Assembly: GCF_011758655.1 (NCBI RefSeq)
Contig: NZ_JAAMPA010000001.1
Location: 1,922,001 to 1,986,000, forward strand
Source: Modestobacter marinus
GTDB lineage: Bacteria; Actinomycetota; Actinomycetes; Mycobacteriales; Geodermatophilaceae
Reading direction: 5' to 3'
Length of the DNA stretch: 64,000 nt
Below are positions 1,580 through 56,780 of the stretch, in pieces; position 1 is the first letter of the stretch, and every line of letters starts with the position of its first letter. Below the pieces are notes generated by a model. The model saw nothing but the letters and a program-made list of their open reading frames with translations. It was not told the origin of the DNA and searched no databases. The position numbers and the translations under genes are program-made.

Positions 1580-2650
1580 TCAATTGAGCCGGTACGTCAC
1601 TGCGAAGTGCGCGGTGACGGCGAACGGCTTGGTGTCCGCGAAGTGCTCCCGGAAGTCGGGGACGTCCACCTTGCAGTGCTCGACAGAGACGGCCCGTCCC
1701 ACGCCCTCGGTCGTACGTCCCACCCTTTCCGGCCACAGCCTCACGGAGCAACATCCCCGGTGCACTGGCGATCTGCACGTCGGGCCACACGTTGGTCACG
1801 ACCTCGATCACCATGCGCCGGACACGCTTGTCTTGCGTCTTGCTGAGCACCTTGTGGCTGACCGACTTGGCCCAGGCCCGACCCTCCATCTCCTCGCCGG
1901 ACTCGTACAGTCGGGGGGTGCGTCCCTGACCCGTGACTGCGTTACGGAGGGTGTTCCGGGTTTCGCCCTCGAAAGCGCGGAAGTCCGCATCTTCCGGCTC
2001 TCGGGTCAACACCGGAACGGGCAGCCAGGCGCGCTGCACCGTGACGCTGGCCGGGTCCTGGCAGTAGTCGCCGTGGTCGATGCTGGACCACATGCCGACC
2101 TCCATGGCGTAACCCCACTCCCGGCAGGCACTCTCGATCATCTGTCCATCCAGCTCTGCGAACAGCGGCGGCGGCGGACGGAACAGGATGATCATGAGCT
2201 TCCCCGACAGGATCCCGCCGGTGTTCTTCCCGGCCTTCTCCTGCAAGATGAACAGCACCGGGTCGCCGTTGTCGTTGGGCTTGACGTCGGTGGCGAGGGT
2301 GACCACCTGCACCGGCAGACGCCCGGCGTACAGCTTCCTGAGGACGTCGGCCAGGACGTCGGCAACGGCGGTGTCGTCGTTGATCAACGCACGCTCGGCC
2401 CGCTGGACGCCGGCCTCACACCCCTGGACCAGTAGTGCGGCGACCTCAGCAGCGGCGGTCGTACTCAGCCACTCGGCAGTCAGGGCGTCCACGTCGGTCA
2501 TGCTGGCCCTGCCGCTGGTCAGGCAGGTGCGGAAGTCCTCAGCGGCGGTCTGACGCTGCTCTTGCTCAGCCTTGGCCTTGGTCACTGCGGCCTGGGCATC
2601 GGCCAGTGCCGCCGGGACAACTCGGCCGGGGTCGGGTCGGTCTTGGTCAT
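1580..2650 (-). pseudogene. Frameshifted hypothetical element gene
   Basis: The best start is the ATG at 2650, preceded by GGAGAG at good spacing, but that frame stops after 22 codons. The adjoining frame (from about 2620 down) carries an Ala/Glu/Lys-rich helical beginning and a long coherent protein until about 1725. There the coherent sequence jumps frame again and ends naturally at 1580 with HFAVTYRLN. Joined across both breaks it would be about 355 residues. No domain is recognised. The two breaks (near 2610-2620 and in the GGAAAGGG run near 1722-1729) could be real decay or assembly errors. A continuous but shorter reading (2585-1560) exists, but its C-terminus is Arg/Gly-rich shadow-like sequence. 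Confidence 0.55.
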
Positions 2651-3323
2651 GTTCTCTCCGGTGTCGGTGGTCGCGGTCGGCGTCGTGGTCTTGCGGGTTC
2701 TCGCGCTGGCCTTCCTTGGCGTGCTGGTCGTCGGTGGCGCGGTGGTCCCCGGGTGGAGGTCGTCGGCACTGATCAGCAGAATTCCGTTATGCGGCATTCG
2801 TTGACTCGCCTTCTGTCTGTTGTTCGCCGGCTCCGGAATTGGGGACGGATCCCGTTTCTGCGCAGGACTGATAGACCCTGGTTAGGGTTAGAGTGCTGGG
2901 ATTGGTTAGAGCTCTGTTGCTCTAGACGATGGGCCTATGGGCGGGCGGGGCCCCGCCCCATCCTCTAGTCGTCCTGCTCGACTAGGTCATGGTCGCTGTT
3001 GCTCAAGGGGAACTGGTCCATCCCCTAGTTGTCCTGTTCCACCAGGGATAGACCTGTTGGGAGCGATAGTGACCCCAACGCTTCTATTCACTTCGCCGCT
3101 GCCATAGAGACGAAGTGCCGCCGTTCCGTAGGTCACGAGGGACACTGCCTCTTTGCCTGCCTTGGATACTTGTCGTCCAGACCAAGAAGATAATCAAGAA
3201 GGGGGATACCTGAGAATCGGCCGATACCCTGATTTACCAGGGGTTTCGGCCTCAGCGGGCACTTAGCCCTTGGCCCTACAGGTCAAACGCTTTGGCCCTC
3301 AGGACCAGGGAACGGGGAAAACC
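2651..3323. other. Repeat-bearing non-coding region of the element, candidate origin or control region
   Basis: About 670 bases without a credible gene. Visible structure: three GGTTAG hexamers (2880, 2886, 2904); a perfect 16-base palindrome GGGCGGGGCCCCGCCC (2943-2958); a 7-bp inverted repeat CTAGTCG/CGACTAG with a 7-base loop (2965-2985); and a 29-base direct repeat (2958-2986 and 3018-3046, five mismatches, 60 bases apart). Such clusters are typical of replication or transfer origins and of complex operators, but nothing here identifies which. Confidence 0.4.
2943..3046. repeat. Palindrome plus 29-base direct repeats
   Basis: A loopless 16-base GC palindrome (2943-2958) adjoins the first of two 29-base direct repeats (2958-2986; 3018-3046). 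The first repeat copy contains a 7-bp dyad, CTAGTCG/CGACTAG; the second copy has lost most of that symmetry through its five differences. Confidence 0.55.
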
Positions 3324-52406: not shown

Positions 52407-53390
52407 ATGGCGCGTCACGTGGTGGTCGGCAAGGGCCCGGTGGGGTCGACGACGGCGCGGCTGCTGGCCGAGCAGGGGCACGAGGTGCTCGTGCTCTCCC
52501 GTAGCGGCGGCACGAGCACCGACCGGGTGGAGCACCGGGCCGTCGACGCGGCCGACGCCGAGGCGCTGACCCGCGCCGTCGGCCGGGCCGACCTGCTCTA
52601 CAACGCGGTCAACCCCCCGGACTACACCACCTGGAGCCGCGACTGGCCGCCGCTGGCGGCGGCTCTGCTCACCGCGGCCGAGCGTTCCGGCGCCGGGCTC
52701 GTGGTCATGGGCAACCTCTACGGCTACGGCCGCCCGTCGGGCCCCCTGACGCCGCAGAGCCCCCTGGCCGCCACGGACGAGAAGGGGCGGCTGCGCGCGC
52801 AGCTGTGGACCGACGCGCTCGCCGCGCACCAGGCCGGTCGGCTCCGGGTCACCGAGGCCCGCGCCTCGGACTTCGTCGGCCCGGGCATCCCGCCCGCCCA
52901 GTCGCACCTGGTCCGCCAGCTGGAGACCCTGCGGCGCGGCCGGCGGGCCTGGGTGGTCGGTGACCCCGACGTCCGGCACAGCTGGACCCACGTGCCCGAC
53001 GCCGCGGCCACGCTGATCGCGCTGGGCGCCGACGACCGGTCCTGGGGCCGGGCCTGGCACGTGCCCAGCCCGGCGCCCCGCTCGCAGCGGCAGGCGCTGA
53101 CCGACCTGGCCCGGGCGATGGGCGCACCGCCGGCCAGGGTCAGCGGCATCCCCTGGCCGGTGCTGCGGGCTGCCGGGCTCGCCGTCCCGCTGATGCGCGA
53201 GGTCGGGGCGATCCGGCACCAGTGGGACCAGGAGTTCGTCCTGGACGCGTCCGAGACCACCGCGGTGTTCGGGCTGGCCGCGACGCCGTGGGACGACGTC
53301 GTCCGCAGCACCGTCGCGGCGGTTCAGCCGGGGACGTCGGCCGGCTCGGGGAGCAGCGCGGAGGCCGGGACCGGCCGGCTGAAGAAGTAG
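52407..53390 (+). CDS. NAD(P)-dependent epimerase/dehydratase-like protein
   Basis: The protein has 327 residues. The N-terminal Rossmann start is VVVGKGPVGSTTARLLAEQG. An atypical SDR core lacks the normal YxxxK triad (the nearest is MGNLYGYGRPSGPL), so it may bind rather than turn over substrates. ATG 52407 has GAGGAG upstream. It is controlled by the divergent TetR-type regulator. The last 22 codons overlap the convergent GGDEF-EAL gene by 67 bases, an unusually long tail-to-tail overlap. Confidence 0.8.
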   Translation: MARHVVVGKGPVGSTTARLLAEQGHEVLVLSRSGGTSTDRVEHRAVDAADAEALTRAVGRADLLYNAVNPPDYTTWSRDWPPLAAALLTAAERSGAGLVVMGNLYGYGRPSGPLTPQSPLAATDEKGRLRAQLWTDALAAHQAGRLRVTEARASDFVGPGIPPAQSHLVRQLETLRRGRRAWVVGDPDVRHSWTHVPDAAATLIALGADDRSWGRAWHVPSPAPRSQRQALTDLARAMGAPPARVSGIPWPVLRAAGLAVPLMREVGAIRHQWDQEFVLDASETTAVFGLAATPWDDVVRSTVAAVQPGTSAGSGSSAEAGTGRLKK

Positions 53391-55072
53391 CCCTGGGCCT
53401 GGTCGGCGCCCAGTGCGCGGAGGGCGTCGCGCTCGGCGGCGGTCTCCACACCCTCCGCGACGGCGACCAGGCCCATCGCGTGGGCGAGGTGCACGCAGCT
53501 GGCGACGATCGCGTGGTCGCCGGCGTCGGTGGTCATCCCGGTGACGAAGGACCGGTCGATCTTCAGCTCGTCGACCGGGAACCGCTTGAGGTAGGTGAAG
53601 CTGGAGAAGCCGGTGCCGAAGTCGTCCACGGCCAGCAGGACACCCAGCGCCTTGAGCGCCTGGAGCGAGGCGAGGGCGGCGTCCGGGTCGGTCATCAGCG
53701 CCGTCTCGGTGATCTCCAGGACCAGTCGGGACGCCGGCAGCCCGGCGCGGGCCAGGGTGCGGGCCACCAGGGGCACGAGGTCGGGGTCGGCGAGCTGACG
53801 GGCGGAGAGGTTGACCGCCGTCTGCAGGCCCGCCGGTCCGCCGGCCGCGTCCCAGCGGACGGCCTGCTCGACGGCCTCGGTCAGCACCCAGGCACCCAGC
53901 TCCCGGATGATCCCGGACTGCTCCGCGGCGTCGATGAACGCGGCGGGCTGGAGCAGTCCCCGGGTCGGGTGCTGCCAGCGGACCAGCGCCTCGACGCCGC
54001 TCAGCTGCCCGGTCGGCAGGTGCTGCCGGGGCTGGTAGTGCACCCGCAGCTCGCCCTCGCGGATGCCGCTGCGCAGCTGCTCCAGCAGCAGGAGCCGGTC
54101 GGCGCCGGGGTCGCTGTCCCCGGGGCGGTGGGCGGTCCAGTGCCCGCTGCCCTGGGCCTTCGCCCGGTACATGGCGTGGTCGGCCCGGCGCAGCAGCAGC
54201 TCGGGGAGCCCGGCCGCATCCGCCTCGGCCACCGGCACCTCGGCGGAGCAGACCCCGACGCTCGCGGTGACGACGACCTCCACGCCCTGCAGCACCACCG
54301 GCTCGGCGAGCAGGTCGATCAACCGCTCGGCGACCCGGGCCGCGCCGGAGGGGGCGACGTCGTCGAGGACGACGAACTCGTCGCCGGCGAAGCGCGCGAC
54401 GTCCGCGCCGGCGCGGGAGGCGCAGCGGATGCGGCGCGCGACCACCTGCAGCAGCTCGTCACCGCTTGCGTGCCCGAGGGCGTCGTTGACCGTCTTGAAG
54501 CCGTCGAGGTCGACGAACAGCACGGTCGGCACCGCGCCGTCCCCCCGGTCGGTGCGGGCCTCACCGAGCCGGCCGCGCAGGGCCCGGAGCAGCCCGGGGC
54601 GGTTGAGCAGCCCGGTGAGCGCGTCGTGGTGGACCAGTTCGGTGAGCTCGGCCTCGGCCTCGGTGATCCGGGCCTCGGACTCCTCGGCCCGCCGGCGCGC
54701 GGCCAGCAGCTCCTCCTCGTACCGGCGGCGCTGCTGGGCGTCGACCAGCACGATCTGCGTCTCCGGCCCCTCCGGCCCGTCGGCGCGGGTGGCGCTGAGC
54801 AGGGCCGGGTGCCGCGCCCCGTCGGGTCCCAGGACCTGGACGGAGGCCTCGGCGATCCGGCCGCTGACCATCAGCTGGGGGAGGGAGTGCGTCGTGTAGA
54901 GCACCCGGTCGCCGATGGGCAGCAGTCTCGCGAACGGGGTGCCCAGCAGGTCCGCGGCGATGTGCCCGGTCCAGTCGGTGAAGGTCGCGTTGACCGCGGT
55001 GACCAGGCCGTCGTCGTCGAGCAGCAGGTGCCCGCCGGGGGCGTGCTGCCAGAGCTCGGCGTAGTCGCGCAT
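53324..55072 (-). CDS. PAS-GGDEF-EAL cyclic-di-GMP protein
   Basis: A 582-residue cytoplasmic protein. A PAS domain (about 5-112; LWQHAPGGHLLLDDDGLVTA) and a coiled linker (112-145) precede a GGDEF domain (145-305) with signature RFAGDEFVVLDD; Ala replaces the first Gly, a change often still active. The EAL domain (325-575) has VEALVRWQHP, NLSARQL, LEITETALM, VDDFGTGFSSFTYLKRF and AEGVET, so phosphodiesterase residues look intact. No membrane segment is present. The ATG overlaps the stop of the RsbQ-like gene (ATGA), strongly suggesting that the hydrolase and this PAS protein work together. Confidence 0.9.
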   Translation of the reverse strand: MRDYAELWQHAPGGHLLLDDDGLVTAVNATFTDWTGHIAADLLGTPFARLLPIGDRVLYTTHSLPQLMVSGRIAEASVQVLGPDGARHPALLSATRADGPEGPETQIVLVDAQQRRRYEEELLAARRRAEESEARITEAEAELTELVHHDALTGLLNRPGLLRALRGRLGEARTDRGDGAVPTVLFVDLDGFKTVNDALGHASGDELLQVVARRIRCASRAGADVARFAGDEFVVLDDVAPSGAARVAERLIDLLAEPVVLQGVEVVVTASVGVCSAEVPVAEADAAGLPELLLRRADHAMYRAKAQGSGHWTAHRPGDSDPGADRLLLLEQLRSGIREGELRVHYQPRQHLPTGQLSGVEALVRWQHPTRGLLQPAAFIDAAEQSGIIRELGAWVLTEAVEQAVRWDAAGGPAGLQTAVNLSARQLADPDLVPLVARTLARAGLPASRLVLEITETALMTDPDAALASLQALKALGVLLAVDDFGTGFSSFTYLKRFPVDELKIDRSFVTGMTTDAGDHAIVASCVHLAHAMGLVAVAEGVETAAERDALRALGADQAQGYFFSRPVPASALLPEPADVPG

Positions 55073-55920
55073 CACCGGGGGAGGAGGTGGGCGCGGATGG
55101 CCGCGGCCGTCTCCTCGGGTGCGCTGATGTGCGGGCAGTGCCCGATGGCCTCCAGCTGCACCAGCGTGGAGCCGGCGAGGTGGGTGTGCAGGTGGTCGCC
55201 CACCGACGGCGGCACCATCGCGTCGGCCCGGCTCTGCAGGATGACCGTGGGTGTGGCGACCTGGGGCAGCAGGGGGCGGAAGTCGGTGGCGAACATGGTC
55301 CCGAGCAGTTGTCGGGCGATGTCGGGGTCGACCCGGCAGAAGCTCGCGGTGAGCCGGTCGCCGTGCTCCGGGTCGTCCGGGGTGCCCATGATCACCGGGG
55401 CCATCGCCTCGGCCCAGGTGAAGTAGTTGCTGTCCAGCGCGCCGGCCACCTCGGCCATGTCGGCGGTGGAGAAGCCGCCGTCGTAACCGGCAGCCGGGTC
55501 CTGCAGGAAGTAGGGGGACGCCGCCACCAGCACGAGCTGCCGGAAGCGCCCGGGCTCTCGCACCGCGGCCAGCAGCGCCATCATCGTGCTGACGCTGTGC
55601 GCGACGAGCGTGACGTCGTGCAGGTCCAGCTCGGCGCAGATGGCGAGCATGTCGTCGGCGTGCCCGTCCAGCGTGGCGTAGCGGACCGGGTCGTAGGCCG
55701 CGACGTCGGACCGGCCGTACCCCATCAGGTCGTGGCGGACGACCCGGTGGTCCGCGCGCAGGTGCGGCAGGACGCCGTCCCACATCCCCTGGTCGCAGCC
55801 GAAACCGTGCGCCAGCAGCAGGACCGGCCCGTCCGGGTCGCCCGTGCTGGTCACGTGCAGCCGCTGCGCCACCGGTCCGGTCAGGACATCGGTCGGCCCC
55901 ATGGCCACCTCCATCGACAT
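55072..55920 (-). CDS. RsbQ-like alpha/beta hydrolase
   Basis: A 282-residue protein close to Bacillus RsbQ in motif order: LAHGFGCDQGMWDGVLPHL, then DLMGYGRSDVAAYDPVRYAT, the nucleophile S109 (VAHSVS), ASPYFLQDPAAGYDGGF, D233 (SRADAMVPPSVG) and H261 (IGHCPHISAPEET). RsbQ activates the PAS-domain phosphatase RsbP, probably by binding or hydrolysing a small hydrophobic ligand; plant D14/KAI2 receptors are relatives. Here the coupled PAS protein makes or degrades c-di-GMP instead. ATG 55920 has GAGGTGA; an alternative ATG at 55902 also has GGAGG. Confidence 0.9.
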   Translation of the reverse strand: MSMEVAMGPTDVLTGPVAQRLHVTSTGDPDGPVLLLAHGFGCDQGMWDGVLPHLRADHRVVRHDLMGYGRSDVAAYDPVRYATLDGHADDMLAICAELDLHDVTLVAHSVSTMMALLAAVREPGRFRQLVLVAASPYFLQDPAAGYDGGFSTADMAEVAGALDSNYFTWAEAMAPVIMGTPDDPEHGDRLTASFCRVDPDIARQLLGTMFATDFRPLLPQVATPTVILQSRADAMVPPSVGDHLHTHLAGSTLVQLEAIGHCPHISAPEETAAAIRAHLLPR

Positions 55921-56097: not shown

Positions 56098-56211
56098 ATG
56101 GGTCTGTTCTCCGCCTGGGTGCTCATCACCCTCGTCGCGCTGGTCGCGCTGGGCTTCGCCGCCTCGGCGTGGCGGGTCGCCCGTGCCGAGCGACCGGGGC
56201 GCGCCCGATGA
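56098..56211 (+). CDS. 37-residue single-pass membrane protein
   Basis: MGLFSAWVLITLVALVALGF, then AASAWRVARAERPGRAR: one membrane helix and a basic tail. Its stop overlaps the ATG of the nitrobindin-like gene (ATGA at 56208-56211), the main evidence for translation. GATTACCGT lies just before the ATG and could serve as a -10 for a nearly leaderless transcript. Family unknown. It may position or assist the next protein, but that is speculation. Confidence 0.65.
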   Translation: MGLFSAWVLITLVALVALGFAASAWRVARAERPGRAR

Positions 56212-56780
56212 GCGCCCCCGTCCCGCCCGGCCTCCCGAACGGGCCGGTCGCCGGCCCGACCGAGCTGCCGGTGCCCGACACCGTCGACGTCCGCGAGGGG
56301 CCCGAGGTGGCCCACGAGCTGCTGTCGGTGCTGCCGCTGCTCGGCGAGTGGCACGGGGAGGGGCAGGCCGCCGGCACCGAGGGCGACCACCGCTTCGGGC
56401 AGTGGGTCCGCTTCGCCCACGACGGGCGCGGCTTCCTCAGCTACGAGTCGCGCACGTGGCGGCTCACCGACGACGGCCAGGTCGCCGGCCCGGACCAGCG
56501 GGAGTCCGGCTTCTGGCGGCCCCGCGGCGAGGAGGAGGTGGAGCTGCTGGTCAGCTCGCCGGCCGGCCTCGTCGAGATCTACGTCGGCACGGCCCGGACG
56601 ACGACCAGCTGGGAGCTGGACAGCGACGTCCTGGCCCGCACCCCCGACCACCCCGACACCAGCCGGGCCAAGCGGCTGTACGGCATCGTCGACGGCGCCC
56701 TGCTCTACGCCGTCGACCGGGCGGCGGGCGACGAGCCCCTGCGCCCCACCATGTCCGCCCGCCTGGAGAGGATCCGCTGA
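56208..56780 (+). CDS. Nitrobindin/FABP-like protein
   Basis: A 190-residue beta-barrel of the DUF1794 type. Signatures: LLGEWHGEGQA, VRFAHDGRGFLSYESRTWRL, ESGFWRPRG, SSPAGLVEIYVGTA and KRLYGIVDGALLYAVDRAA. Relatives bind haem through a C-terminal His and act on peroxynitrite; M. tuberculosis has two, Rv2717c and Rv0813c. Genome position near sseC and pabC fits the Rv0813c type. At the place where I expect the axial His (pattern HLxAxL) this protein reads RPTMSARLERIR, so haem binding is doubtful. It is translated together with a 37-residue membrane protein. Confidence 0.85.
   Translation: MSAPVPPGLPNGPVAGPTELPVPDTVDVREGPEVAHELLSVLPLLGEWHGEGQAAGTEGDHRFGQWVRFAHDGRGFLSYESRTWRLTDDGQVAGPDQRESGFWRPRGEEEVELLVSSPAGLVEIYVGTARTTTSWELDSDVLARTPDHPDTSRAKRLYGIVDGALLYAVDRAAGDEPLRPTMSARLERIR

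Follow-up and report, generated by a model that had tools for sequence, protein, structure and literature searches.

How might an alpha/beta hydrolase inform a PAS domain about a small molecule, as an enzyme that hands over a product or as a receptor? This question is raised by a gene pair of Modestobacter marinus lying in a stretch of 64,000 nucleotides (the window; contig NZ_JAAMPA010000001.1, positions 1,922,001 to 1,986,000), in which the gene of an RsbQ-like hydrolase overlaps that of a protein with PAS, GGDEF and EAL domains. We regard it as likely, with a probability of about 0.72, that the two proteins constitute a bipartite sensing module of the RsbQ-RsbP-PAS type with an output in cyclic diguanylate (c-di-GMP). 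What the sequences show directly is that both proteins belong to the respective families, that their genes are adjacent and conserved as a pair, that the catalytic triad is intact and that the output domains carry catalytic motifs; physical contact between hydrolase and PAS domain and an effect on c-di-GMP are predicted from sequence and by analogy with Bacillus subtilis.

Modules of this kind were described by Nadezhdin, Brody and Price (2011; PMC3183031), who listed 45 adjacent RsbQ/RsbP-PAS pairs with PPM phosphatase, kinase or diguanylate cyclase outputs, three of the cyclases carrying an EAL domain, and who considered two models, delivery of a hydrolase product to the PAS domain (Model 1) and the hydrolase as receptor (Model 2). 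The idea that the arrangement is new to science was rejected, since that paper already lists pairs whose output is GGDEF or GGDEF-EAL, and the window pair is a clear new example of the 2011 module, not a new system. Accordingly, what remains of the preliminary description of this DNA is the conserved RsbQ-type pair with output domains of the c-di-GMP type, but not the novelty, as both such modules and the receptor model were published in 2011. Our literature search, with most subscription papers outside its reach, found no publication that treats this pair in Modestobacter. Beyond the 2011 work go a genome that holds two modules with predicted insulation and the natural occurrence of RsbQ paralogs without the catalytic histidine.

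The gene pair and its domains

The two genes and the domains of their products are located as follows:

55072..55920, minus strand: RsbQ-family alpha/beta hydrolase, 282 amino acids, ATG start, triad S109-D233-H261
55070..55075, minus strand: junction GTGATG, in which the stop codon TGA of the hydrolase and the start codon (GTG or ATG) of the PAS protein overlap
53324..55072, minus strand: PAS-GGDEF-EAL protein, 582 amino acids from the ATG at 55072, 583 amino acids from the GTG at 55075
54725..55066, minus strand: RsbP-type PAS domain, residues about 3-116, above the Pfam cut-off
54146..54631, minus strand: GGDEF domain, residues 148-309, above the Pfam cut-off, motifs AGDEF and DLDGFKTVND (metal site)
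53372..54082, minus strand: EAL domain, residues 331-567, above the Pfam cut-off, motifs EALVRW, NLS, EITE, DDFGTG, KID, EGVET and QGY (the last three taken from the protein translation)

When PDB sequences were searched with the hydrolase, its best match among solved structures was Bacillus RsbQ (1wom; E 1.2e-66), followed by receptors of the D14/KAI2 family (best E 2.2e-54). The protein has the Ser-Asp-His triad expected of a hydrolase in the RsbQ-RsbP-PAS module, and both its RsbQ-like character and the intact triad of Ser109, Asp233 and His261, each found in its assigned place, were confirmed. It shares with the plant receptors D14 and KAI2 the hydrolase family and the complete triad, and it may likewise report to a partner; however, its partner is a PAS protein, whereas those of D14 and KAI2 in plants are F-box and SMXL proteins. 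The preliminary description had drawn a bacterial parallel to these receptors, which holds as far as the common hydrolase family is concerned but is not new, since the receptor model as well as the kinship of RsbQ with strigolactone and karrikin receptors had already been published.

The PAS-GGDEF-EAL architecture earlier assigned to the partner was borne out, each of the three domains exceeding its Pfam cut-off. As in the RsbQ-RsbP-PAS module (PMC3183031), the RsbQ homologue immediately precedes a protein that has an RsbP-type PAS as its most N-terminal domain; this PAS domain ends with VDAQQRRRYE and has no DIT motif there, as the class requires, and GGDEF is one of the three class outputs (PPM phosphatase, histidine kinase, GGDEF), GGDEF-EAL being known as well. 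The best match of the window PAS among PDB sequences had only an E value of 0.26. The PAS domain is followed by a charged stretch; a coiled coil was predicted between PAS and output in 36 of the 45 pairs of 2011, with EAL-bearing proteins among the exceptions (PMC3183031). The hydrolase family, the gene order and the N-terminal PAS domain are likewise those of the RsbQ-RsbP energy-stress pathway of B. subtilis, but the window protein has a GGDEF-EAL output in place of the PPM phosphatase and hence no direct link to a sigma factor. A stress-module partner wired to a diguanylate cyclase is also known from Moorella MtG, where RsbT is combined with an RsbU-N-terminal module on a GGDEF domain, although RsbT is not an alpha/beta hydrolase (PMC12143880); the same paper cites the coupling to GGDEF.

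The two genes do overlap, but not by the ATGA previously claimed, as the junction on the minus strand reads GTGATG. From the ATG start the overlap would amount to 1 nucleotide (TGATG, 582 amino acids) and from the in-frame GTG one codon upstream to 4 nucleotides (GTGA, 583 amino acids).

The motifs listed above for the EAL domain are those relevant to catalysis, and this set is complete. The active-site motif of the GGDEF domain reads AGDEF versus the expected GG(D/E)EF, and no canonical RxxD I-site was seen in this domain when the sequence was read by eye. With a complete set of EAL motifs and AGDEF in the GGDEF domain, phosphodiesterase activity or two-way control appears more likely as the net output than pure c-di-GMP synthesis. 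A cyclase with an AGDEF motif has been reported to be active (PMC3974145).

Conservation of the pair

After removal of 8 loci without a hydrolase match and 44 repeats (hydrolases that do not differ across residues 21-200 of the match), 192 unique RsbQ loci were retained from an initial 244; the set includes 80 of 580 confirmed loci from one contig scan and leans to Actinomycetota. The frame of an RsbP-type PAS protein starts within 700 nucleotides downstream on the same strand in 182 of the 192 loci, and hydrolase-PAS adjacency is therefore not due to chance. The outputs of these 182 partners comprised 110 PP2C-type phosphatases, 25 GAF domains (at loci where the frame runs past the locus end and the phosphatase type is presumed), 23 histidine kinases, 22 GGDEF domains (19 with EAL) and 2 that were unrecognised. 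Ten representative partners and four more kinases were checked against Pfam, the EAL match being incomplete in one of the ten (L078). In 19 of the 22 GGDEF-type pairs, including that of the window, a candidate start precedes the end of the hydrolase gene by 4 nucleotides, and thus the tight coupling is conserved.

Hydrolase matches were present in all 23 genomes of the genus Modestobacter (E 1e-60) and in 78 of the 96 genomes of the family sample (E 1e-30), in at least 24 of 396 genomes of the phylum sample (E 1e-40) and in at least 20 of 197 genomes of the Micrococcaceae sample (E 1e-60), the latter two counts being lower bounds with at most 6 and 13 candidates, respectively, scored per genome. 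Moreover, the GGDEF-EAL pair adjoins a nitrobindin-like gene (PF08768) in 8 of the 23 Modestobacter genomes, and an epimerase match was found on its other side in seven of these eight carriers (one partial), none being detected in G047. In 8 other genomes of the 23 the epimerase match (short and partial in two of them) adjoins the nitrobindin-like gene and both partners are absent, while 5 genomes were not judgeable at this site and 2 were without the flanking gene. This pattern of presence and absence at the nitrobindin-epimerase site means that the pair is gained or lost as a unit at one site in Modestobacter. Conservation in related genomes, which had been proposed as a check on the pair, is thus evident both from the paired loci and from its eight carriers in the genus.

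These observations bear on the possibility that the hydrolase gene encodes a metabolic esterase of the usual sort and is co-transcribed with its neighbour by coincidence. Alpha/beta hydrolases are common, and a metabolic role would be in keeping with the NCBIfam matches of the protein, all of them below cut-offs (PcaD, BioH and others). However, the adjacency at 182 loci, the joint presence or absence of both partners in Modestobacter and the identity of the closest solved relative, RsbQ, make this explanation highly improbable, and a chance-placed esterase was rejected because the pairing is too regular and the two genes come and go together.

The nitrobindin-like neighbour of the window (56169-56780, plus strand, divergent; THAP4-like/nitrobindin haem-binding protein) occurs in 21 of the 23 Modestobacter genomes, irrespective of whether they hold the module. 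The hydrolase-PAS pair was also found in Arthrobacter and relatives. RsbQ-like genes that have no PAS gene downstream were seen in Pseudarthrobacter/Arthrobacter and kin (L081-L083, L086, L088, L233, L245 and L250). An Arthrobacter-like RsbQ and PAS were encountered in a record titled Vibrio cholerae (WNZI01000003.1; L079), which is probably mislabelled or mixed, since its hydrolase falls among those of Arthrobacter in the tree.

Two module lineages and their putative interfaces

PAS residues were numbered from the distances between the residues that Nadezhdin et al. name (PMC3183031), without aligning to B. subtilis RsbP itself, such that L16, L51, R56, L58, Y59, H62, P65, E75 and P89 of the window protein correspond to L13, L48, Q53, F55, C56, Y59, P62, E72 and P86 of RsbP. 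On this numbering, the class residues L13, L48, E72 and P86, and also P62, are identical in the window PAS; arginine at Q53 and histidine at Y59 would fit the consensus classes basic and H/Y of the 2011 legend, if these classes belong to the two positions. Departures are glycine at C10, leucine at F55 and tyrosine at C56. In B. subtilis, RsbQ was reported to contact the PAS domain, and the substitution F55A in the F-alpha helix of that domain to disrupt RsbQ binding (PMC3183031).

A quick tree of 82 of the 192 hydrolase rows, with 25 of the 110 phosphatase rows taken at random and the 25 GAF rows at locus ends left out, contained a clade of 48 rows with a Shimodaira-Hasegawa-like approximate likelihood ratio test (SH-aLRT) value of 99. 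PAS position 55 is aliphatic in all 40 domains of this clade, whereas 140 of the 142 other domains have an aromatic residue there (Y, F, H or W), most of these others being phosphatase rows absent from the tree and assigned outside the clade by label. Position 56, in contrast, does not separate the two groups, being aromatic in 40 of 40 domains inside and 137 of 142 outside. In the hydrolases outside the clade, residue 167 is leucine in 134 of 144, residue 168 glycine in 134 of 144 and residue 217 aspartate in 141 of 144, whereas inside the clade L167 occurs in 6 of 48, G168 in none of 48 and D217 in 2 of 48. As the clade is mainly one lineage, the shift of these three hydrolase positions together with PAS position 55 is co-inheritance, not a tally of independent events. 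The window module falls into a second RsbQ-PAS lineage, with an aliphatic position 55, inside which the output has apparently switched between GGDEF and histidine kinase.

The window genome (G000, 5.1 Mb), which has 42 GGDEF matches, holds a second RsbQ gene (L039, G000:C1:2796000-2803000; hydrolase 2270-3055) that overlaps the gene of a PAS-GAF-SpoIIE phosphatase. By its domain content this locus is an RsbP-like module in the same genome as the GGDEF-EAL module. Its PAS domain had no match among PDB sequences at E 0.01. The two-copy genomes of the 2011 paper (three are named) repeat one output type (PMC3183031), whereas the window genome adds a phosphatase-linked copy. Since the phosphatase module combines PAS F55 with hydrolase L167-G168 and the GGDEF-EAL module PAS L55 with hydrolase F167-T168, the two are predicted not to cross-talk. 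Partner specificity and signal identity could be compared side by side for a phosphatase and a c-di-GMP module within one genome. Another Modestobacter genome (L040, G087:C1:3750000-3758000) has three RsbQ genes; two of these adjoin genes of GGDEF-EAL proteins that belong to different lineages.

Position 56 also matters for the possibility that the PAS domain binds a ligand or cofactor of its own and that the hydrolase merely serves as a structural activator. At this position, which was aligned with the haem-ligating histidine of Dos and FixL (PMC3183031), 18 of the 22 GGDEF-type PAS domains have Y or H, and the divergent neighbour of the pair encodes a putative haem-binding protein. However, the authors of the 2011 paper report that RsbP-PAS has no cofactor and that C56A changes little, and the link to haem through the nitrobindin-like neighbour is weak because its gene is present also where the module is absent. 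A self-sufficient PAS sensor is therefore quite improbable, if less so than the coincidental esterase.

Enzyme or receptor

According to Model 1, the hydrolase makes a product that passes to the PAS pocket, so that the PAS domain would be the sensor and hydrolysis essential. In accordance with this model, the triad is intact in the window hydrolase and in all 22 GGDEF-type hydrolases, and it is required in B. subtilis (PMC3183031). A different picture emerged from a genus of Micrococcaceae (that of G663), of which 29 genomes were searched and duplicates removed by place. Here, 17 paralogous hydrolases (at least 52% identical to L248) adjoin PAS-kinase genes, and 16 of the 17 have lost the catalytic histidine (L246, L248, L249, L251-L260 and L263-L265, the range L251-L260 standing for nine with duplicates counted once; L261, L262, L266, L280 and L281 are repeats). 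Their triads read S-D-N in 10, T-D-N in 2, S-D-S in 3 and S-D-T in 1, L247 alone keeping S-D-H, while 13 other hydrolases from this genus, of lower similarity, are all S-D-H; a further 15 hydrolase places in the genus (one a partial match, in G713) stand outside this triad reading. The 17 partner proteins have kept PAS residue E72 and the SHELRTP H-box in all cases and P62 in 15.

The ratio of nonsynonymous to synonymous substitution rates (dN/dS) ranged from 0.17 to 0.34 in 8 of the 9 pairs compared from the His-less group, the ninth being zero with no nonsynonymous change, and 0.09-0.21 in three pairs with intact triads. Given these ratios, the His-less paralogs appear to be genes under purifying selection that have abandoned the usual chemistry. 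A second histidine three residues further on is kept in the group and could in principle stand in for the lost one. As 16 of 17 paralogs beside PAS-kinases lack the catalytic residue, their sequences favour a receptor over an enzyme role, and Model 1 seems unlikely to us, though it is the most serious of the rival explanations; all that the paralogs show is that the catalytic histidine is dispensable in other members of the class. Their natural occurrence makes the enzyme-or-receptor question directly testable. His-less RsbQ proteins were not found in the literature by title or beginning of the abstract, most subscription papers being outside reach.

For the window pair we therefore prefer a sensing module in which the hydrolase would act as receptor. 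By analogy with B. subtilis, the PAS-GGDEF-EAL protein would form a dimer, to whose PAS domains and linker the RsbQ-like protein would bind; an AlphaFold 2 (AF2) model of two RsbP and two RsbQ chains, published in eLife in 2025, places RsbQ between the PAS domains and linkers (PMC12143880). A small molecule occupying the hydrolase pocket would alter the contact with the PAS domain, and a helical linker would relay this change to the GGDEF-EAL pair and thereby set c-di-GMP turnover, the net effect of which may be that of a phosphodiesterase or a cyclase. Hydrolysis would probably reset the signal rather than make it, as in Model 2. A butenolide-type ligand, which the preliminary description had put forward for testing, has no support. 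Nadezhdin et al. described the RsbQ-RsbP signal as unknown (PMC3183031), and no later identification was found in the literature examined.

Several points weigh against this interpretation. The triad requirement in B. subtilis, which fits Model 1 as well, stands against a simple receptor, and because the triad of the window hydrolase is intact, the receptor argument rests on other organisms, in which the His-less group may moreover be under weaker constraint than the pairs with intact triads. With leucine at the interaction residue F55 and glycine at C10, the contact between hydrolase and PAS domain in the window must, to judge from these residues, differ in detail from that in B. subtilis. 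In addition, 10 of the 192 loci have no PAS gene downstream, and when five genomes with a PAS-less RsbQ were checked at E 1e-6, three had no RsbP-type PAS, one had a weak PAS match (2.2e-7) and one a PAS protein at another site, next to a hydrolase of its own. Some RsbQ relatives thus work otherwise than through a PAS partner.

A broader generalization is possible but tentative, and we would sooner doubt than assert it: RsbQ-PAS modules might be hydrolysis-independent receptors, one lineage of which became His-less like GID1, and two modules of Modestobacter with rewired and mutually insulated interfaces might, in one cell, feed one or two signal classes into PP2C-type phosphatase and c-di-GMP pathways. 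GID1 is an alpha/beta hydrolase receptor of plants said to have lost its active-site histidine, a loss that parallels that of the RsbQ paralogs, but it is said to descend from another branch, the hormone-sensitive lipases, and the window hydrolase, in contrast, keeps its histidine. The RsbQ-linked kinases named in the 2011 paper were from Gram-negative bacteria (PMC3183031), and our survey adds that RsbQ-linked PAS-kinases occur in Actinomycetota as well.

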